From IMG/VR virus record IMGVR_UViG_3300020452_000867, positions 1 through 24,967 of that record: 24,967 nucleotides of DNA. One strand, given 5' to 3'. The notes beneath the pieces were generated by a model that saw only the letters and a list, made by a program, of their open reading frames with translations, had not been told where the DNA came from and did not search any database. This document shows, one piece after another, positions 9,687 through 24,965 of the stretch. This stretch comes from a virus. The position numbers and the translations under genes are program-made. How positions within the stretch are numbered: the stretch's first letter is position 1; each line of letters opens with the position of its first letter.

Positions 9687-10370
9687 ATGAAAAAACTATT
9701 GACCATTGGCATATTATTTCTTAGTGCATATATGGTCGGGTGTGCAAGCACTCAAAGTACCGAGTATTACACTGCTGTGCAAAACGCGGCTATAGCACAG
9801 TCAAACATGATGAAAGCTAGGTACGATGCACTAGGTAAAATAGCAGGAAATGGAGGAGAGGCGTCTACAGCAGCAGTAATGGCTTTAGCTATGACAAGTC
9901 AAACTCCTATAGTTCCTCAGCCACAAAAATCAGAAGCATTACAATGGGCACAAATATTAGCCGGTCCAATAGCTGGATTGGGTTCTATGTGGTTGTCTAA
10001 TGATGCAACTAAAACAATGGCAAGATATAATAAAGATACGCAGATATCTAGGATAAATGCAGATCAGCAGAACACTACAGAACTTTATGGTCTTATGGGC
10101 AATAATTCAGATAATATGATGGATTTAGGTCTAGGAGGGTTTAATGCGCTGAATACTTCAATGGAATATATGGATAATAGTGATATTACATTCCCTGATT
10201 ATTCTACTAACTTTGGTAATATTGACAATTATCTATTACAAATAATAAATAATTTAAATACGAGTAGTACTGATGATAATCAAATTTGGATTCCTGGAGT
10301 AAATTGTGTTAACAATGCTAATCCAGGCGTTATTGGCGTTGGTGGTACAGTTACTGTTTGTCCGCAATAA
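9687..10370 (+). CDS. Phage-encoded lipoprotein
   Basis: A 227-residue protein with the strongest ribosome binding site of the + strand cluster (AGGAGG at 9676-9681). Residues 1-18 form a signal peptide (KK, then LLTIGILFLSAYMVG) ending in a lipobox with Cys19. The residue after Cys is Ala, not Asp, so Lol sorting to the outer membrane is expected. The mature protein has an Ala/Met-rich helical part (AVMALAMTSQTP, AQILAGPIAGLGSMWLS) and a C-terminal Asn-rich region with two late cysteines (CVNNANPG and VTVCPQ). It is the last + strand gene before the terminator. Possible roles are superinfection exclusion, lysis or receptor masking; none is shown by the sequence. It is too long and lacks the neighbour expected of a classical o-spanin. 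Confidence 0.65.
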   Translation: MKKLLTIGILFLSAYMVGCASTQSTEYYTAVQNAAIAQSNMMKARYDALGKIAGNGGEASTAAVMALAMTSQTPIVPQPQKSEALQWAQILAGPIAGLGSMWLSNDATKTMARYNKDTQISRINADQQNTTELYGLMGNNSDNMMDLGLGGFNALNTSMEYMDNSDITFPDYSTNFGNIDNYLLQIINNLNTSSTDDNQIWIPGVNCVNNANPGVIGVGGTVTVCPQ

Positions 10371-10373
10371 AAT

Positions 10374-10395
10374 AAAGGGGCTTTCGCCCCTTTTT
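10374..10395. terminator. Bidirectional intrinsic terminator
   Basis: An 8-bp perfect stem (AAAGGGGC at 10374-10381 with GCCCCTTT at 10386-10393) has a four-base loop (GAAA when read on the - strand) and T-runs on both sides. It lies between two convergent genes that end at 10370 and 10398, so it can stop both transcripts. Confidence 0.9.
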
Positions 10396-10397
10396 CT

Positions 10398-10985
10398 TTA
10401 GAAATTCCACACTATTCCTATTGTGGATTCCTCACTACCGATCTGTCCCCCAACTGTCCAATCACCAAGCTCTTTCGAGATATTGATGGCTTTATAGTTG
10501 TCAAAACCGGTTGCTTTTCCGTACTCTAATGAGACGTCAAACTCTTTAATAAAAGGTACTTCTACTATAGCATTTACGAAATCTAAATCAGAATTATCAA
10601 TATCTTGATAGTAAGTTAAACTTACACCATATGTACTAAATCCTACATATGCCTCTTCTATAGTATCATAAATTTCATCCCACGCATAACGAATATAACC
10701 TCCAGACAGTTTAAAATTATCATTTACCCAATAATCGTACCCTGCAACTAAATCATATTCATACTTAGCATCATCATTAAAATCTACTTGAGATGCCCAG
10801 GCTGCTAAAGTAAATCCACCTAATGCGACTCCTACTCCTGCACTAAGAGCTACTTCTCCGTCATTCTGAGAATATCCTCGCCATACATAATCTGAATGTA
10901 CACCGATCATTCCACTAAAATGCTCTGCAGATATAGCTGTAGTGGGTAGTAAGAGTAATAATATTATTATTATTTTTTGAATCAT
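10398..10985 (-). CDS. Outer-membrane beta-barrel, Gcw_chp/TIGR02001-like
   Basis: A 195-residue protein with a signal peptide at residues 1-20 (IIIILLLLLPTTAISA, then EHF). The mature part begins GMIGVHSDYVWRGYSQNDGE, followed by FTLAAWASQVDF and the acidic EYDLVAGYDYW. This matches the pattern I recall for the Gcw_chp family (TIGR02001), proteobacterial proteins of unknown function: 'SDYxxRGxSQ ... G(x)WxSxVDF ... ELD'. Alternating strands and a final Phe (STIGIVWNF) form a BAM-type beta signal, so insertion into the host outer membrane is expected. The start overlaps the stop of the 48-residue gene as ATGA, tying it to the nrd operon. Function may be host-surface alteration or uptake; this is inference. 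Confidence 0.72.
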   Translation of the reverse strand: MIQKIIIILLLLLPTTAISAEHFSGMIGVHSDYVWRGYSQNDGEVALSAGVGVALGGFTLAAWASQVDFNDDAKYEYDLVAGYDYWVNDNFKLSGGYIRYAWDEIYDTIEEAYVGFSTYGVSLTYYQDIDNSDLDFVNAIVEVPFIKEFDVSLEYGKATGFDNYKAINISKELGDWTVGGQIGSEESTIGIVWNF

Positions 10986-11128
10986 TCATTTTCCTCTGTG
11001 GGTGCTACTTGAGGCTGAGCCTGCTCTTGTACTTTTTGAATAACGGGCATACTAACCTTTGCTGGTAATTCTCCAAGAGCATTTAAAACTACGTTTACCT
11101 CGTCCAGCTCTAAGTTTAATGTTATCAT
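10982..11128 (-). CDS. 48-residue protein after nrdB
   Basis: This small gene is coupled at both ends: its ATG overlaps the nrdB stop (ATGA at 11125-11128) and its TGA overlaps the start of the outer-membrane protein (ATGA at 10982-10985). The protein starts MITLNLELDEVNVVLNALGE and continues LPAKVSMPVIQKVQEQAQP, with an acidic tail. Short proteins with the 'EVNxxLxALxxLPxxxxxxxIxKIxxQ' pattern are known to me from other phages, where they have no assigned function. Predicted as one or two amphipathic helices, soluble. Coupling to nrdB suggests co-expression; a role in reductase control is only a guess. Confidence 0.68.
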   Translation of the reverse strand: MITLNLELDEVNVVLNALGELPAKVSMPVIQKVQEQAQPQVAPTEENE

Positions 11129-12084
11129 TTAAATATATCCTGCCAATTTCCTGTTGTACTTGCACGAGAGTACTCAGTTGCTCGGTTCTCAAAGAAATTA
11201 GTGTGCTCAACCCCGTTTAACATGTAATCTAACCATCCTAATGGATTTTGCTCACTCCCAAATATCTTTTTCAATCCTAGCCCTAGGAGTCTACGATCTG
11301 CAATATAACGAATATATCCTTTTACTTCTTCAGCACTTAAATCTGGTACTTCCGCACCGTGAAAGCATAAATCAATAAAAGAATCTTCTAGTTCTACTGC
11401 TCGCTCTGCAGCACAGTAGATTTCATATTTCAAATCATCATTCCATAGTTCAGGATTTTCTTTAACAAAAGTTCGAAATAGTTGTGACATTCCCTCTACG
11501 TGAAGAGTTTCGTCTCGTACTGACCAAGTCACGATCTGTCCCATTCCTTTCATTAAGTTGTGACGAGGAAAGTTCAATAATACAGCAAAACTGCTAAATA
11601 ACTGTACTCCCTCTGTAAAACCCGAATAGATAGCCATAGTTTTGGCAATATCCATCGGAGTGTCCATACCAAAGTTATTGAGATGTTCATGCTTTGCCAA
11701 CATTTCTTCATGCTCAAAGAACTTCTGATACTCTTCATCTCCAAACCCTAGAGTTTCTAGAAGTAAGGAGTATGCTTCCTGATGTACTGCTTCCATCGCT
11801 GCAAAAGCAGACAACATCATACGTACTTCAGGTTGTTTAAAAGTTGGTAAATAATGTTTTGCATACCCACAACAAACATCTACATCTGCTTGAGTAAAAA
11901 ACCTAAAAATCTGTGTAATAAGTCTTCTGTTCCCAGGGGTTAGTTTCTCACGATAATCTCTTAAATCATCTGCAAGATTTACTTCATCTGGAAGCCAATG
12001 CATATGCTGTTGGGTTTTGTAATGTTCAAAAGCCCACGGGTAATTAAACGGTTTGTAATACTCTCTTTCTTCTAATAAACTCAT
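11125..12084 (-). CDS. nrdB: Ribonucleotide reductase class Ia, small subunit
   Basis: The 319-residue beta subunit makes the tyrosyl radical for dNTP synthesis. Di-iron ligands can be read at Asp67, Glu98, His101 (AMEAVHQEAY), Glu158 (FTEGVQ), Glu192 and His195 (RDETLHVEGM). The radical tyrosine is Tyr105, four residues after His101 as in E. coli NrdB (Tyr122 after His118). The spacing between the second-half ligands (Glu158 to Glu192, 34 residues) equals that of E. coli. The protein is about 55 residues shorter than E. coli NrdB. The C-terminus contains HTNFFENRATEYS, typical of phage and bacterial class Ia proteins. It follows nrdA and a 54-residue gene, and an SD-like GGTGAG precedes its ATG. 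Confidence 0.95.
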   Translation of the reverse strand: MSLLEEREYYKPFNYPWAFEHYKTQQHMHWLPDEVNLADDLRDYREKLTPGNRRLITQIFRFFTQADVDVCCGYAKHYLPTFKQPEVRMMLSAFAAMEAVHQEAYSLLLETLGFGDEEYQKFFEHEEMLAKHEHLNNFGMDTPMDIAKTMAIYSGFTEGVQLFSSFAVLLNFPRHNLMKGMGQIVTWSVRDETLHVEGMSQLFRTFVKENPELWNDDLKYEIYCAAERAVELEDSFIDLCFHGAEVPDLSAEEVKGYIRYIADRRLLGLGLKKIFGSEQNPLGWLDYMLNGVEHTNFFENRATEYSRASTTGNWQDIFK

Positions 12085-12087
12085 ATC

Positions 12088-12252
12088 TCACCAATTATGT
12101 ACTATGTTTGTCATAATGAAAAAAGCACACACAACATTAACAATTACTATTAAAGTTCTTAGCATTGCTACAATATTATCATACTCTGCTGTTTTTTCAT
12201 CACTAAAACTGCCTATTGTATATTTCCAAACTGTCCAAACTTTACCCTTCAC
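12088..12252 (-). CDS. 54-residue membrane protein between nrdA and nrdB
   Basis: This gene starts with GTG inside the last codons of nrdA and ends three bases before nrdB. The N-terminal part is soluble (KGKVWTVWKYTIGSFSDEKT), then residues of about 31-50 form one membrane helix (LRTLIVIVNVVCAFFIMTNI), and the protein ends VHNW. The frame is open over its whole length and is the only one that fills the nrdA-nrdB gap. Small proteins with the 'YTIGSFSD-K-AEYDN' start and 'HNW' end are, from memory, common beside nrd genes in marine phages. A membrane-linked accessory role to dNTP synthesis is possible but not shown. Confidence 0.72.
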   Translation of the reverse strand: MKGKVWTVWKYTIGSFSDEKTAEYDNIVAMLRTLIVIVNVVCAFFIMTNIVHNW

Positions 12253-14011
12253 AAGCTACACAGCCTTCATCATCTAAGCTATCAAATATATACTGTCGTA
12301 AAACTTCATCAGAAACAGTTTCTGCTCTTTTAATAGCTTCACTTCGTAGATAGTATAGGGTTTTTACTTTTCTTTTCCATGCCATCATATGTATTGCATG
12401 AAGTTCTTGTTTTGACACATCTGCGGGAAAGAATATATTTAAAGATTGACTTTGACAAATATCCATTTGTCTATCAGATGCCATATCAATAATCCATTTC
12501 TGGTCTATTTCTACAGCAGTTTTAAATACATCTTTACTCCATTCATCTAAAAAGTCTAGATGTTGTACTGAGCCATTATTTGTAATAATACTCTTCCATA
12601 CATCATCTGTATCTTGGTCTAGCTCTTGTAGAATATGTTCTAAGTACTCATTTTTGAGTAGGCTAGATCCGCTTTTAGTTTTCTGTGTAAATGCATTAGC
12701 CCTATAAGGCTCAATACTGGGAGAAGTATTACCACATATAATACTACTGCTAGCATTAGGAGCCACAGCCAGAAGATGAGCGTTACGAACGCCATAACCA
12801 ACTCCATCAGGGCATTCACCCCTTTCTTCAGCCAATTTTTTAGTTGCATCCTTTGCTCTCCATTTTATGTGCTGAAACATTTTCATGTTCGCACCTTTTG
12901 CTGATGCGCTCTCAAAAGGAAGATTATGCCGTTGTAAGTATGCGTGAAATCCCATTGCTCCAAGACCTAAACTTCTTTCTCTAGATGCACTGTATACAGC
13001 CCTTACTAAATGCATTGGGGCATTTTCAATAAAATAACTAATAACATTATCTAGCATACGAATAAGATCAGGAATAAAATTATCATCATGTTTCCACTCA
13101 TCGAACTCTTCCAGATTTACACTTGATAGACAACATACTGCAGTTCTATCTTCACTTGTTGGAAGAGTAATTTCAGAACACAGATTTGAATGGTGTACAT
13201 TTAATCCTGCATCTTTTTGAAACTGAGGTAATGCTGCCTGAACTGTATCTTTAAACATAATGTAAGGTTCACCAGTTTCTACTCTATTTTGAATTAATTT
13301 AACCCAAAGAGTTTTTGCAGAAACTGTTTTTGTTACTTGATTTGTATGTGGATCTATCAAATCCCAAGAGTCGTCAAACCCTTCCTCTCTTGTAGCGCCT
13401 TCTATAAGCCCCATGAAATCATCACCAACAAGAATACCGTGATGTAAATTGACAGACTTTCTGTTGACGTCCCCACCTGTAGGTTTACGAACATCCAAAA
13501 ATTCTTCAACTTCTGGATGAGATATGTCCAAATATGCTGCATAACTTCCTCTCCTTGTGACTCCTTGTGAAAAAGCTAACATTTCTGCATCTACTACTTT
13601 CATAAAAGGAATAACACCAGTACTTTCAGATCCATTCGAAGTTTTAGAGCCTACGCTTCTAACATGACTCCAATAACCGCCCACACCACCACCAACACTA
13701 GAAAGAAAAGCGTTCTCAGTGTAGTGTCCGGTGAGTCCCTGTCTACTATCCTCAACGTAGTTAAGGAAACAGCTAATAGGAAGCCCCCTAGATGTTCCGC
13801 CATTACTGAGGATAGGAGTAGAAAACATAAACCAAAGTTTACTAACATAGTCATACAACCTCTGTGCGTGTGCATCATCATCTGAAAATGCTTTTGCCGC
13901 TCGTGCAAACGCATCTTGAGGAGAAGTTTCCCCCTCTATTAAGTATCTATCTTGCAATGTTTTATGACTGAATTCCGATAAATACTTATCTCTATCGTAA
14001 TTAATTAACAC
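12242..14011 (-). CDS. nrdA: Ribonucleotide reductase class Ia, large subunit
   Basis: The 589-residue alpha subunit reduces ribonucleotides. Active-site residues are Cys81 (PISCF), Asn276-Leu-Cys278-Ser-Glu280 (SNLCSE), Cys293 (AVCCLSS), Tyr553-Tyr554 (LYYLRS) and a C-terminal Cys584-x-x-Cys587 that receives electrons from thioredoxin or glutaredoxin. Length is about 170 residues below E. coli NrdA (761). The N-terminal ATP-cone that senses dATP appears absent, since Cys81 occurs where E. coli has Cys225. The start is GTG at 14011, with AAGGAG five bases upstream at 14017-14022, and overlaps the end of the exonuclease gene by seven bases. The short N-terminus suggests freedom from dATP feedback, as in other phage enzymes. 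Confidence 0.95.
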   Translation of the reverse strand: MLINYDRDKYLSEFSHKTLQDRYLIEGETSPQDAFARAAKAFSDDDAHAQRLYDYVSKLWFMFSTPILSNGGTSRGLPISCFLNYVEDSRQGLTGHYTENAFLSSVGGGVGGYWSHVRSVGSKTSNGSESTGVIPFMKVVDAEMLAFSQGVTRRGSYAAYLDISHPEVEEFLDVRKPTGGDVNRKSVNLHHGILVGDDFMGLIEGATREEGFDDSWDLIDPHTNQVTKTVSAKTLWVKLIQNRVETGEPYIMFKDTVQAALPQFQKDAGLNVHHSNLCSEITLPTSEDRTAVCCLSSVNLEEFDEWKHDDNFIPDLIRMLDNVISYFIENAPMHLVRAVYSASRERSLGLGAMGFHAYLQRHNLPFESASAKGANMKMFQHIKWRAKDATKKLAEERGECPDGVGYGVRNAHLLAVAPNASSSIICGNTSPSIEPYRANAFTQKTKSGSSLLKNEYLEHILQELDQDTDDVWKSIITNNGSVQHLDFLDEWSKDVFKTAVEIDQKWIIDMASDRQMDICQSQSLNIFFPADVSKQELHAIHMMAWKRKVKTLYYLRSEAIKRAETVSDEVLRQYIFDSLDDEGCVACEG

Positions 14012-22014: not shown

Positions 22015-22335
22015 TCAACCACTTATTACTCCTAAATTAAAACTAACTCCACATCCACAGGCATCCTGTGCATTTGGATTCGTAATTGTAATTGCATCGC
22101 CACCCAGACTAGAATTGTAATCAATTACACTTCCAGCAACAGCAAACTCTGCATTTTCTTCAACTATTACTAAGTCTGCAACAACTCGGCCATTATGATC
22201 TTCGTCTGCATAGTCCCAAACATATTCAAATCCAGCGCAACCACTTGGTTTTAAACTAAGACCTGCATATTTGTGACCTTTCTTCTTTAGTTGTTCTTTA
22301 AGATACTTCTTCGCATTGGCAGTTATAGTCAACAT
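22015..22335 (-). CDS. A-type iron-sulfur carrier (IscA/HesB family)
   Basis: A 106-residue protein. I prefer ATG 22335 (MLTITANAKKYL), preceded by GAGGGA, over ATG 22347, which would add four residues. The three cluster-binding cysteines are Cys33 (PSGCAGF), Cys93 and Cys95 (DACGCGVSF), spaced as in IscA, SufA and ErpA. These proteins pass Fe-S clusters to apo-enzymes. By eye it is far from E. coli IscA outside the motifs, so it looks like an established phage lineage, unlike the adjacent IscU. HesB-like genes are known in marine phages. Possible clients are host or phage Fe-S proteins; the sequence does not name one. The frame overlaps the end of iscU by 38 bases. Confidence 0.9.
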   Translation of the reverse strand: MLTITANAKKYLKEQLKKKGHKYAGLSLKPSGCAGFEYVWDYADEDHNGRVVADLVIVEENAEFAVAGSVIDYNSSLGGDAITITNPNAQDACGCGVSFNLGVISG

Positions 22336-22708
22336 TTTTTCCCTCATAATCGCTTATAGCGGCTTTTATAGCATCTTCGGCAAGAACACTACAATGTATT
22401 TTTACTGGGGGTAGGCTAAGTTCTGTAGCAAGCTCGGTATTCTTGATCTTACGAGCGTCTTCAAGTGTCTTTCCCTTAACCCACTCGGTAAGCAAAGAAC
22501 TCGATGCAATTGCCGATCCACATCCGTAAGTTTTAAACTTAGCGTCTTCAATGACTCCTTCCTCAGTGACTTTAATTTGTAGTCGCATAACGTCACCACA
22601 AGCAGGTGCTCCAACCATACCTGTGCCCACGGATCTAGCGCTTTCATCAAATCTTCCAACGTTTCTTGGTCTTTCATAATGATCTAATACCTTCTCAGAG
22701 TAAGCCAT
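22298..22708 (-). CDS. iscU: IscU-type iron-sulfur cluster scaffold
   Basis: A 136-residue scaffold on which Fe-S clusters are built. I start at ATG 22708 (MAYSEKVLDHYERPRNVG), the conserved IscU N-terminus, not at the longer frame. Cys37 and Asp39 (GAPACGDVM), Cys63 (YGCGSAIASSS) and Cys106 (KIHCSVLAED) are all present, as is LPPVK at 99-103, the HscA chaperone docking motif. Compared from memory with E. coli IscU, about three quarters of residues are identical. A final stretch NVDYNCQCEEVS with Cys130 and Cys132 is extra and lies exactly in the overlap with iscA. It would therefore work with host IscS, HscA and HscB. The first 14 bases overlap polA. Confidence 0.95.
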   Translation of the reverse strand: MAYSEKVLDHYERPRNVGRFDESARSVGTGMVGAPACGDVMRLQIKVTEEGVIEDAKFKTYGCGSAIASSSLLTEWVKGKTLEDARKIKNTELATELSLPPVKIHCSVLAEDAIKAAISDYEGKNVDYNCQCEEVS

Positions 22709-24965
22709 ATTGTTTCTCGAATTTGCCCATTGAATAGTCATCTCCTATTTCAAAGTCACATCCAACCGGGGCTCCAGGGATCTTTATCCCTCTGTCTAAT
22801 TGTATAAAATGTTGTAAAAACTCACAGTATTCTTGCTCTTCATCATTAGGTACTTCGGCAAGAATAGAGTCATGTACTAATGCAAATATACGAGACTTCA
22901 TTTTGTTTACTCGTATATACTCACCCATATCTATAGCTCCAAGTAAGTTAATGTCAGAAGCAGCAGACTGCACCAGAAAATTAAGACCACTCCTAATGGA
23001 ATGACTTTTGATTCCAGCGTCAGATGATTTAACGTTAGGGAGTCTCCTTTTTCTTCCAAAGAAACTGTATATAAATCCATTTTGCTCAATAAACCGTTGA
23101 CTAGCGTCAATCCACTTCCTAAGCATATGAAAAGAAGTAAAGTAATCATCAATAACCTCCTTGGCCTCATTCTGGCTAAAGTATGTGCCAGAATCTTTTG
23201 TAACTTGTTCACTAATTTTTTTCGGCCCTGCACCGTACATGATACCGAAGGTTACAGCTTTGGCAGCCTGTCTTTTATCTTTATACAGCATATCTACATC
23301 TTCAACAGGACAGGGTAGTCTAAATACTGTTTTCGCAATACTACTATGAAAGTTACCGCCAGAACGAAATACTTCCATGAGTGCTTCATCCTTTGCTAAT
23401 ATTGCAGCAACATATACTTCTGCAGTAGTTAAATCCATTGCAACTATACGATGCCCTTCTGATGCTTTGATACAGCCTTTTACAATGGGATTGTCCCGAG
23501 GCAACTGCTGCATGTTAAGTTTACCGCTAGAGCTAAGACGCCCGCTAGTAGTACCGTGAAGATTAAAACCTGTACGTAGTCGGCTATCTCGATCCAGTTG
23601 CGGTATGATTTTGTCCAAATAAGTATTTTTAATTTTGGATTTTTGTCGTATGTCCAAGATGAGTTGAGGGACTTCGGATTGCTCTGAAAGCCGCTCAAGG
23701 ACTTCTGCATCGGTTGAGTGCGCGCCTGTCCCTGTTTTCTTTCCAGTAGGATTAAGACCGATGTAATCAAAAAGTAAGCTACGGAGCTGTACTGTACTAT
23801 TGGGATTAAAATCTTTTCCATTTATTTTCTCGAATTCTGCAATCTTTGGGTTCTCATATAGTGTTGCAATGGCTTTATCAATATCATCTTGCATAAGTTC
23901 TTGTGAAATTTGTAATCTTCTTTTATTGAATGGTACACCATTGTCCTGTGTATCCGTTAGAAACCGGCAACCTGGAATCAAAATATGATCATAAACCCAT
24001 GCTAACTTCTTATTCTGTTTGATTTTTACAAACTTTTCATAAAGTAAAAACGTACACAATGCATCCATTGCTGCGTATGTTTTCATTACTTCAAAAGGAA
24101 TAGAACTCCATTGAAAATCATTTTTCAATATTCCATGTTCTTTCCTGTACTGATCCATCCAATCATACATTGGCTTTTCATAATCACCATACGGTGTAAA
24201 CTTTATAGATAACTGCTTTAAACCATGCCCTCCTGGGTTCTCGTCTATGAGATAGTGGAGCAACATTGTATCTTCAAATCTTGGAAACTCAAAATTAAAA
24301 TGGTATTCAAAGAACGCCATATCAAACTTTGCATTATGAAATACTACTATCTTATTCTTAAATAATTTTCTAAGTAACTCTTCTGTAGTTTCATCGAATA
24401 CTTCTGTATTAATATATGCTCCTGACTTCCCATCATAACAAAGAGATATGCCAAGCATATATCCGTCACGAGGATACAACCCCGTTGTTTCTGAGTCAAG
24501 AGATATATACTCACCTTCATGGTCTATAGCTGCTTGTATAAATGTATTACATTCTTCTGTATCGTCAATTCCGAAAGCAATAGACTCATCAATTATAACT
24601 TCTTCTATCTCACCATTTATATACTTTATAATATTTTCTTTTGAATCATCCCAAGTCTTTCTTGCTTCTGGTTTAAATGTAAGCATTGCTGGGTTGATAA
24701 CTGGTAAAAACTTTTCTTCTACTTTTTTACCTGAGTATTCTGTAACTGAATTAATTTTAGTATAGTACTTTAACGCATCACTACCTACTAGTACAATCCA
24801 GTCATATAAACTTATATCGAGATCAATATCACAATCTCGTTTTAATACTTTTTTAATTTTAGGATCAGAACATAATTGATACTGATCAAAGTCAAACGCA
24901 CCTTCAAACTCACGTCTAAAGTCCGTTCTACTTGGTTTAGTTTCTACTAAGGCAACTTTAGCCAT
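22695..24965 (-). CDS. polA: DNA polymerase A family, with 3'-5' exonuclease
   Basis: A 756-residue replicative polymerase starting two bases from the window edge, so the start cannot be tested by its ribosome binding site. Exonuclease motifs: Asp157 and Glu159 (SLDSETTGL), Asn211 and Asp215 (FHNAKFDMAFF), Tyr297 and Asp301 (KTYAAMDA). Polymerase motifs: TTSGRLSS near 472-479; motif A Asp511 and Glu516 (MDLTTAEVYVAA); motif B Arg565, Lys569, Phe573 and Tyr577 (RQAAKAVTFGIMYG); motif C His698-Asp699-Ser700. Phe573 corresponds to E. coli Phe762. There is no 5'-3' nuclease domain; a separate gene supplies it. Residues of about 1-120 resemble a degenerate uracil-DNA glycosylase fold (VLVGSDALKYYT, VINPAMLTFKPEA). 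Motif C carries Ser instead of the common Glu. Confidence 0.95.
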   Translation of the reverse strand: MAKVALVETKPSRTDFRREFEGAFDFDQYQLCSDPKIKKVLKRDCDIDLDISLYDWIVLVGSDALKYYTKINSVTEYSGKKVEEKFLPVINPAMLTFKPEARKTWDDSKENIIKYINGEIEEVIIDESIAFGIDDTEECNTFIQAAIDHEGEYISLDSETTGLYPRDGYMLGISLCYDGKSGAYINTEVFDETTEELLRKLFKNKIVVFHNAKFDMAFFEYHFNFEFPRFEDTMLLHYLIDENPGGHGLKQLSIKFTPYGDYEKPMYDWMDQYRKEHGILKNDFQWSSIPFEVMKTYAAMDALCTFLLYEKFVKIKQNKKLAWVYDHILIPGCRFLTDTQDNGVPFNKRRLQISQELMQDDIDKAIATLYENPKIAEFEKINGKDFNPNSTVQLRSLLFDYIGLNPTGKKTGTGAHSTDAEVLERLSEQSEVPQLILDIRQKSKIKNTYLDKIIPQLDRDSRLRTGFNLHGTTSGRLSSSGKLNMQQLPRDNPIVKGCIKASEGHRIVAMDLTTAEVYVAAILAKDEALMEVFRSGGNFHSSIAKTVFRLPCPVEDVDMLYKDKRQAAKAVTFGIMYGAGPKKISEQVTKDSGTYFSQNEAKEVIDDYFTSFHMLRKWIDASQRFIEQNGFIYSFFGRKRRLPNVKSSDAGIKSHSIRSGLNFLVQSAASDINLLGAIDMGEYIRVNKMKSRIFALVHDSILAEVPNDEEQEYCEFLQHFIQLDRGIKIPGAPVGCDFEIGDDYSMGKFEKQYGLL

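Follow-up and report, generated by a model that had tools for sequence, protein, structure and literature searches.

Why does a phage carry, at the end of its ribonucleotide reductase genes, a gene for a protein that appears destined for the outer membrane of its host? The question is raised by the stretch of DNA analysed here (the window), which comprises the viral contig IMGVR_UViG_3300020452_000867 over its 24,967 bases. We approached it through the family and predicted fold of the product, the setting of the gene in this and other phages, and the genes that accompany bacterial members of the family.

The window encodes a putative TorF-family porin

A reading of the sequence alone had placed a gene of a Gcw_chp-like barrel family at 10398-10985 without giving its strand. 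The plus strand across this interval is riddled with stop codons, and an ORF on the minus strand fills the coordinates exactly (Table 1). The family assignment is borne out by two profiles that the product matches above cut-off, namely TIGR02001 (NCBIfam, TorF family putative porin; E 9.6e-20, 71.2 bits against a cut-off of 47.15) and PF09694 (Pfam, Gcw_chp; E 7e-8, 33.1 against 24). The signal peptide, the SDYVWRGYSQ signature and the C-terminal beta-signal named in that reading are all present in the sequence. The signal peptide has a Lys, a hydrophobic core and a closing AISA followed by Glu, with no lipobox Cys in residues 1-20; Asp-32, Tyr-33, Arg-36, Gly-37, Ser-39, and Gln-40 of the signature are invariant in an alignment of 32 phage and bacterial porin members; and TIGIVWNF matches the BAM beta-signal pattern polar-x-G-x-x-aromatic-x-aromatic. 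The porin gene is under purifying selection (dN/dS between porin copies, 0.04-0.21), and relatives that are 53-99% identical occupy the equal operon position in other viral contigs. Taken with the profile matches, these results argue that the ORF is not a chance one. No relative of the window porin was found among INPHARED phages, and there was no PHROG match and no PDB match by sequence. Weak matches to Vibrio phage proteins annotated as PagP (E 0.5) and to contigs of "Acinetobacter phage MD-2021a," which look bacterial, were set aside.

Table 1. Features of the porin locus in the window
Feature	Position	Strand	Basis or remark
Putative lipoprotein, lipobox VGCAST, end of tail-fibre block	9687..10370	+	translation
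Terminator-like hairpin between convergent porin and lipoprotein genes	10374..10393	both	hairpin found on both strands
TorF-family (Gcw_chp) porin gene	10398..10985	-	195 codons from ATG; TIGR02001 and PF09694 over cut-off
BAM beta-signal TIGIVWNF, residues 188-195 (C-terminal)	10401..10424	-	read from sequence
SDYVWRGYSQ signature, residues 31-40	10866..10895	-	alignment
Signal peptide, residues 1-20	10926..10985	-	read from sequence
48-aa ORF between nrdB and porin gene	10982..11128	-	ATGA overlaps at both ends; relatives have a counterpart
nrdB, class I ribonucleotide reductase small subunit	11125..12084	-	phrog_86, E 6e-87
nrdA, ribonucleotide reductase large subunit	12242..14011	-	phrog_84, E 5e-175

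The porin is predicted to be a 12-strand barrel with an acidic lumen

AlphaFold2 predicted a 12-strand barrel from 5 phage sequences (pLDDT 75) and again from 32 phage and bacterial sequences (pLDDT 83.7). The sequence-only reading had suggested a fold search as a check, and the predicted barrel proved closest to KdgM among solved folds (Z 17.2, rmsd 2.3, 157 aligned), with VhGalP (Z 16.0), NanC (Z 15.1), and Tsx (Z 13.8) as further matches. No KdgM-type family was among the Pfam matches of the window porin at E up to 1, so that it shares with KdgM-type porins the fold only. Tsx, another of the fold matches, raised the idea of a nucleoside channel of its kind that supplies the nrd pathway. We rejected this candidate, since the scores of KdgM-type porins are higher and no link to Tsx was seen at the sequence level. 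Export and a barrel, both proposed earlier, thus have the support of the sequence, the profile matches and the model, which are predictions, and we infer that the host would export the product and that BAM would insert it in the outer membrane. Nine acidic residues and one basic residue of the strands face inward when assigned by strand alternation without coordinates, which makes the lumen charge an estimate. Alignment and alternation together identify Glu-76 and Glu-111 as conserved acidic lumen-side residues. The lumen is predicted to be acidic and to favour cations.

The porin gene closes an operon-like nrd block

The genes in this block run SbcD-SbcC-RusA-5' exonuclease-nrdA-nrdB-48-aa ORF-porin, an operon-like order in which the porin comes last. 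Four-base ATGA junctions join nrdB, the 48-aa ORF and the porin gene, ATGA is found at the porin start in all relatives checked, and the hairpin parts the nrd/porin block from the virion (tail-fibre) genes. It had been claimed that the porin is expressed with the nrd genes and not with the virion genes; the one support for this claim is the gene layout, i.e. the ATGA overlaps and the hairpin, from which it appears that the porin would be made early or midway in infection alongside ribonucleotide reductase. The lipoprotein across the hairpin, whose family is unassigned, could be an Llp-type surface lipoprotein.

Elsewhere in the window, a NifU-like Fe-S assembly gene (22298-22741, phrog_8429) lies within the replication block, and no amt or glnK was recognised in the 24,967 nt. 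The window DNA polymerase is nearest to those of large Vibrio and Aeromonas phages (~43%), and a fibre protein is nearest to those of Pelagibacter and Roseobacter phages (~40%). One relative (L036-L038) encodes a D5-like regulator and a two-part NAD ligase, which are replication genes of the T5-like kind.

The slot after nrdB holds exchangeable putative uptake proteins

We surveyed viral contigs with close nrdB relatives for the gene that follows the small ORF. This slot is occupied by the porin in 12 contigs (window included) and otherwise by a TonB-dependent receptor, of which there are two types, or by neither; receptor and porin stand in tandem in three contigs (L130, L131, and L146). The receptor genes (756-816 aa) directly follow nrdB and the small ORF (L050:4109-6379, L051:4109-6550, L097:4124-6574, and others). 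Both receptor types carry the plug domain PF07715, the barrel domain PF00593 is found in type B, and a TonB-box-like EEIVV follows the signal peptide. Among NCBIfam models, they match TonB-siderophor best, with a score under the cut-off of that model. Type A relatives occur in 23 viral contigs and type B relatives in 4, and for one slot receptor the closest bacterial relatives lie in one alphaproteobacterial (1.4 Mb) and one gammaproteobacterial (1.2 Mb) genome. On the nrdB tree, the porin label needs five changes, at least three of them forced by well-supported branches, and the receptor A label needs four. We therefore conclude that the cargo of the slot has been exchanged. A receptor A that is 60% identical is followed by a divergent family porin in a different phage group with PPK2 and terminase genes (L136 and L137), in which no nrd genes were seen within the stretch read.

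Several further observations were made in these contigs. A lipoprotein similar to that of the window (lipobox GCAST) adjoins the slot in L068, L148, and L150. The slot is filled by a 2OG-Fe(II) oxygenase-like gene in L075 (4105-4749) and also in L072, L104, and L105. The PPK2-like polyphosphate kinase gene of the phage with the receptor-porin pair lies at L136:643-1263 on the minus strand. Two contigs (L013:3807-5684 and L163:2960-4837) keep the porin and lack nrdA and nrdB, in place of which they encode a 625-aa protein, maybe a ribonucleotide reductase of another class. L013, which carries the small ORF twice, is labelled as a "Parcubacteria" locus, and we took it to be a misbinned phage contig because its phage gene order is identical.

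Related porins are spread across phages

Searching with a wider alignment, we found 56 viral loci, and the 43 viral loci examined fell into 12 neighbourhood groups, which rest on contig fragments, some of which could be pieces of related genomes. The TIGR02001 cut-off is passed by eight proteins from different groups and by both proteins from the isolated Caulobacter phages CcrSC and CcrBL9, in which the porin gene stands directly before a PnuC-like transporter gene, followed by ribosylnicotinamide kinase. Neighbours of the porin in viral contigs encode IscU-like proteins (17 contigs), peroxiredoxin, ThyX, and a 2OG oxygenase. An ammonium transporter gene, amtB (PF00909, E 2e-45), lies upstream of gp47-gp46 and the porin in a T4-like block (L189), ~3.8 kb from the porin, and amt is present in 1 of the 12 viral records tested. 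Viral amt genes were already known (PMC9083009); in the literature searched, the coverage of which was incomplete, we found nothing on a TorF/Gcw_chp porin in phages or on its linkage to amtB.

Two side observations were made in viral loci. In the IscU group (L171:3-1481 and relatives L170 and L173-L182), a gene for one viral protein that combines CHASE2 with adenylate/guanylate cyclase, unusual for a phage, lies just upstream of the porin. One viral family member (L203:2690-3766, also in L202, L204, and L205) is 358 aa long and has an extra N-terminal part of ~115 residues.

Bacterial members of the family often adjoin ammonium-uptake genes

In a sample of 114 gammaproteobacterial genomes, at least 30 of 69 family members (a lower bound) have amt on the same strand no more than 2 kb away, with ~0.26 expected. 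At least 28 of 56 genomes have an amt-linked member, and amt is downstream in at least 26 cases; more than half of the members in this sample were not seen near amt. A search with the phage alignment gave 22 bacterial loci, 9 with the order Gcw-glnK-amtB and 2, both from Methylophaga, preceding methylamine dehydrogenase genes. Further, glnK and/or amtB adjoin 10 of 11 additional alpha- and gammaproteobacterial loci with a good fit to the phage profile, which were chosen from the better matches and not at random (glnK alone was called in L240). In the family tree, which leaves out bacterial rows L040 and L044, the marine phage sequences group together (87/80, not strong) within a clade (98/94) with eight bacterial members, seven of which are amt-linked and some of which come from genomes of 1.2-1.4 Mb. 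The window porin falls within this clade, shared with the amt-linked members; neither glnK nor amtB is found beside the window gene, which follows nrdB instead.

The statement in the sequence-only reading that the family has no known function was too strong, as Gcw_chp is listed under TCDB 1.B.71, with 12 predicted strands, in a survey of outer-membrane pore families (PMC4827864), and the genes that surround its members suggest a role in nitrogen uptake. A substrate for any TorF-family member was not found in the literature searched.

The porin may open a nitrogen-uptake route during infection

Because bacterial versions often adjoin ammonium-uptake genes, the phage probably feeds nitrogen to the infected cell. 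We propose, holding the case to be evenly balanced, that with this porin the phage supplies the outer-membrane half of an uptake route, whose most likely cargo is ammonium or small nitrogenous cations. The proposal draws on computed features, i.e. the family, predicted fold, layout, purifying selection, spread among phages, receptor exchange, and amt linkage of bacterial members. The porin would be exported by the host and inserted by BAM as an open 12-strand barrel whose acidic lumen would favour cations; it would be produced early or midway in infection together with the phage ribonucleotide reductase; and the inner-membrane half of the route would be a transporter of the host itself, with AmtB as the likeliest candidate. 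More ammonium or small nitrogenous cations could thus enter, presumably to the benefit of the phage, while it makes nucleotides. The porin gene, which lies on a phage contig, belongs to a host-type family, and is under purifying selection, is a candidate auxiliary metabolic gene. The sequence-only reading had offered nutrient uptake, receptor masking, and exclusion of other phages as functions; the first gains family-level support from glnK-amtB, methylamine dehydrogenase, pnuC, and the alternation with TonB-dependent receptors, and we found no specific support for the other two. Ammonium can pass general porins, and a dedicated ammonium porin therefore needs a reason. The IscU-like, peroxiredoxin, and ThyX neighbours, which are not nitrogen genes, also count against ammonium, as do the majority of sampled bacterial members that were not seen near amt, a window in which no amt or glnK gene was recognised, and the finding of amt in just one of the 12 viral records tested.

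Another possibility is a nutrient porin whose cargo is not ammonium but iron-related compounds, cofactors, or a mix of small solutes, and which works with the TonB-dependent receptors found in the same slot. The alternation with receptors whose best model is TonB-siderophor (below cut-off), the IscU-like genes after the porin, the NifU-like gene of the window itself, the fact that nrdB encodes an iron enzyme, and the pairing of pnuC with the porin in CcrSC and CcrBL9 would all fit such a function. However, siderophore complexes need TonB receptors and not a narrow porin, the linkage seen in bacteria is to amt, and the IscU adjacency may reflect a mere shared cargo island; we consider this explanation unlikely.

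Alternatively, the porin could change the cell surface against other phages, by masking or replacing a receptor or by sparing progeny from loss on debris. Outer-membrane proteins commonly serve as phage receptors, T5 encodes the receptor-blocking lipoprotein Llp and phage-encoded porins such as Lc of PA-2 may act likewise, the group has T5-like replication genes, and a slot that swaps a porin and two receptor types would suit shifting surface roles. A dN/dS of 0.04-0.21, the linkage of bacterial members to ammonium genes, the pairing of amtB and pnuC with the porin inside phages, and slot alternatives that are uptake proteins with TonB-box-like motifs speak against it and make it, in our judgment, distinctly unlikely. 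A general alteration of the envelope (osmotic balance, permeability, or BAM load) that involves no specific substrate would agree with a prediction that covers the barrel fold only, but the repeated pairing with specific transporters and the conserved acidic lumen-side residues, e.g. Glu-76 and Glu-111, are hard to reconcile with it, and we regard it as improbable.

Implications and comparison with known systems

To our knowledge, known phage nutrient genes act mostly inside the cell or at the inner membrane. Here, phages themselves seem to provide the outer-membrane uptake step, and to do so repeatedly and with interchangeable proteins. Overall, we tentatively suggest, as something short of an even case, that a phage-specific clade of an ammonium-associated bacterial porin is common to some ten lineages of marine phages; that one T5-like marine group has an exchangeable slot for uptake proteins (the porin, two types of TonB-dependent receptor, or both); that phages thereby take over the outer-membrane uptake step, beyond inner-membrane or metabolic steps; and that TorF is an unrecognised outer-membrane part of bacterial ammonium acquisition. 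A widespread bacterial porin family thus gains a testable substrate hypothesis, ammonium or small amines, which is also open to test in the cultured pair of Caulobacter vibrioides CB15 and CcrSC.

Outer-membrane uptake proteins have been seen in marine viruses before. The huge marine phage Mar_Mega_1 encodes a SusC-like TonB-dependent receptor (PMC9723777), whereas in the window group the genes that replace one another in the single slot after nrdB encode a porin and receptors of two kinds that differ from the SusC-like one. Viruses of oxygen-minimum zones carry glnK-amtB-ompL cassettes, in which a porin of unknown substrate appears in a nitrogen-uptake setting (PMC8115048); that porin is OmpL-like, comes from Flavobacteriales and lies downstream of amtB. 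In isolated phages, CcrSC gp344 and CcrBL9 gp342, annotated as hypothetical or putative exported proteins, are likewise TIGR02001 members but represent a separate acquisition in the tree and have the pnuC and ribosylnicotinamide kinase genes directly after them. KdgM and NanC, 12-strand porins and the closest solved folds, share <20% identity with the window porin, and KdgM takes acidic sugars, whereas the lumen of the window porin is predicted to be acidic. With the TorF family (TIGR02001 and PF09694; TCDB 1.B.71), the window porin has in common the DYxxRGxSQ signature, both profiles and 12 predicted strands; it is shorter (~175 versus ~215 mature residues) and, being phage-borne, stands in an nrd block and not beside glnK-amtB.
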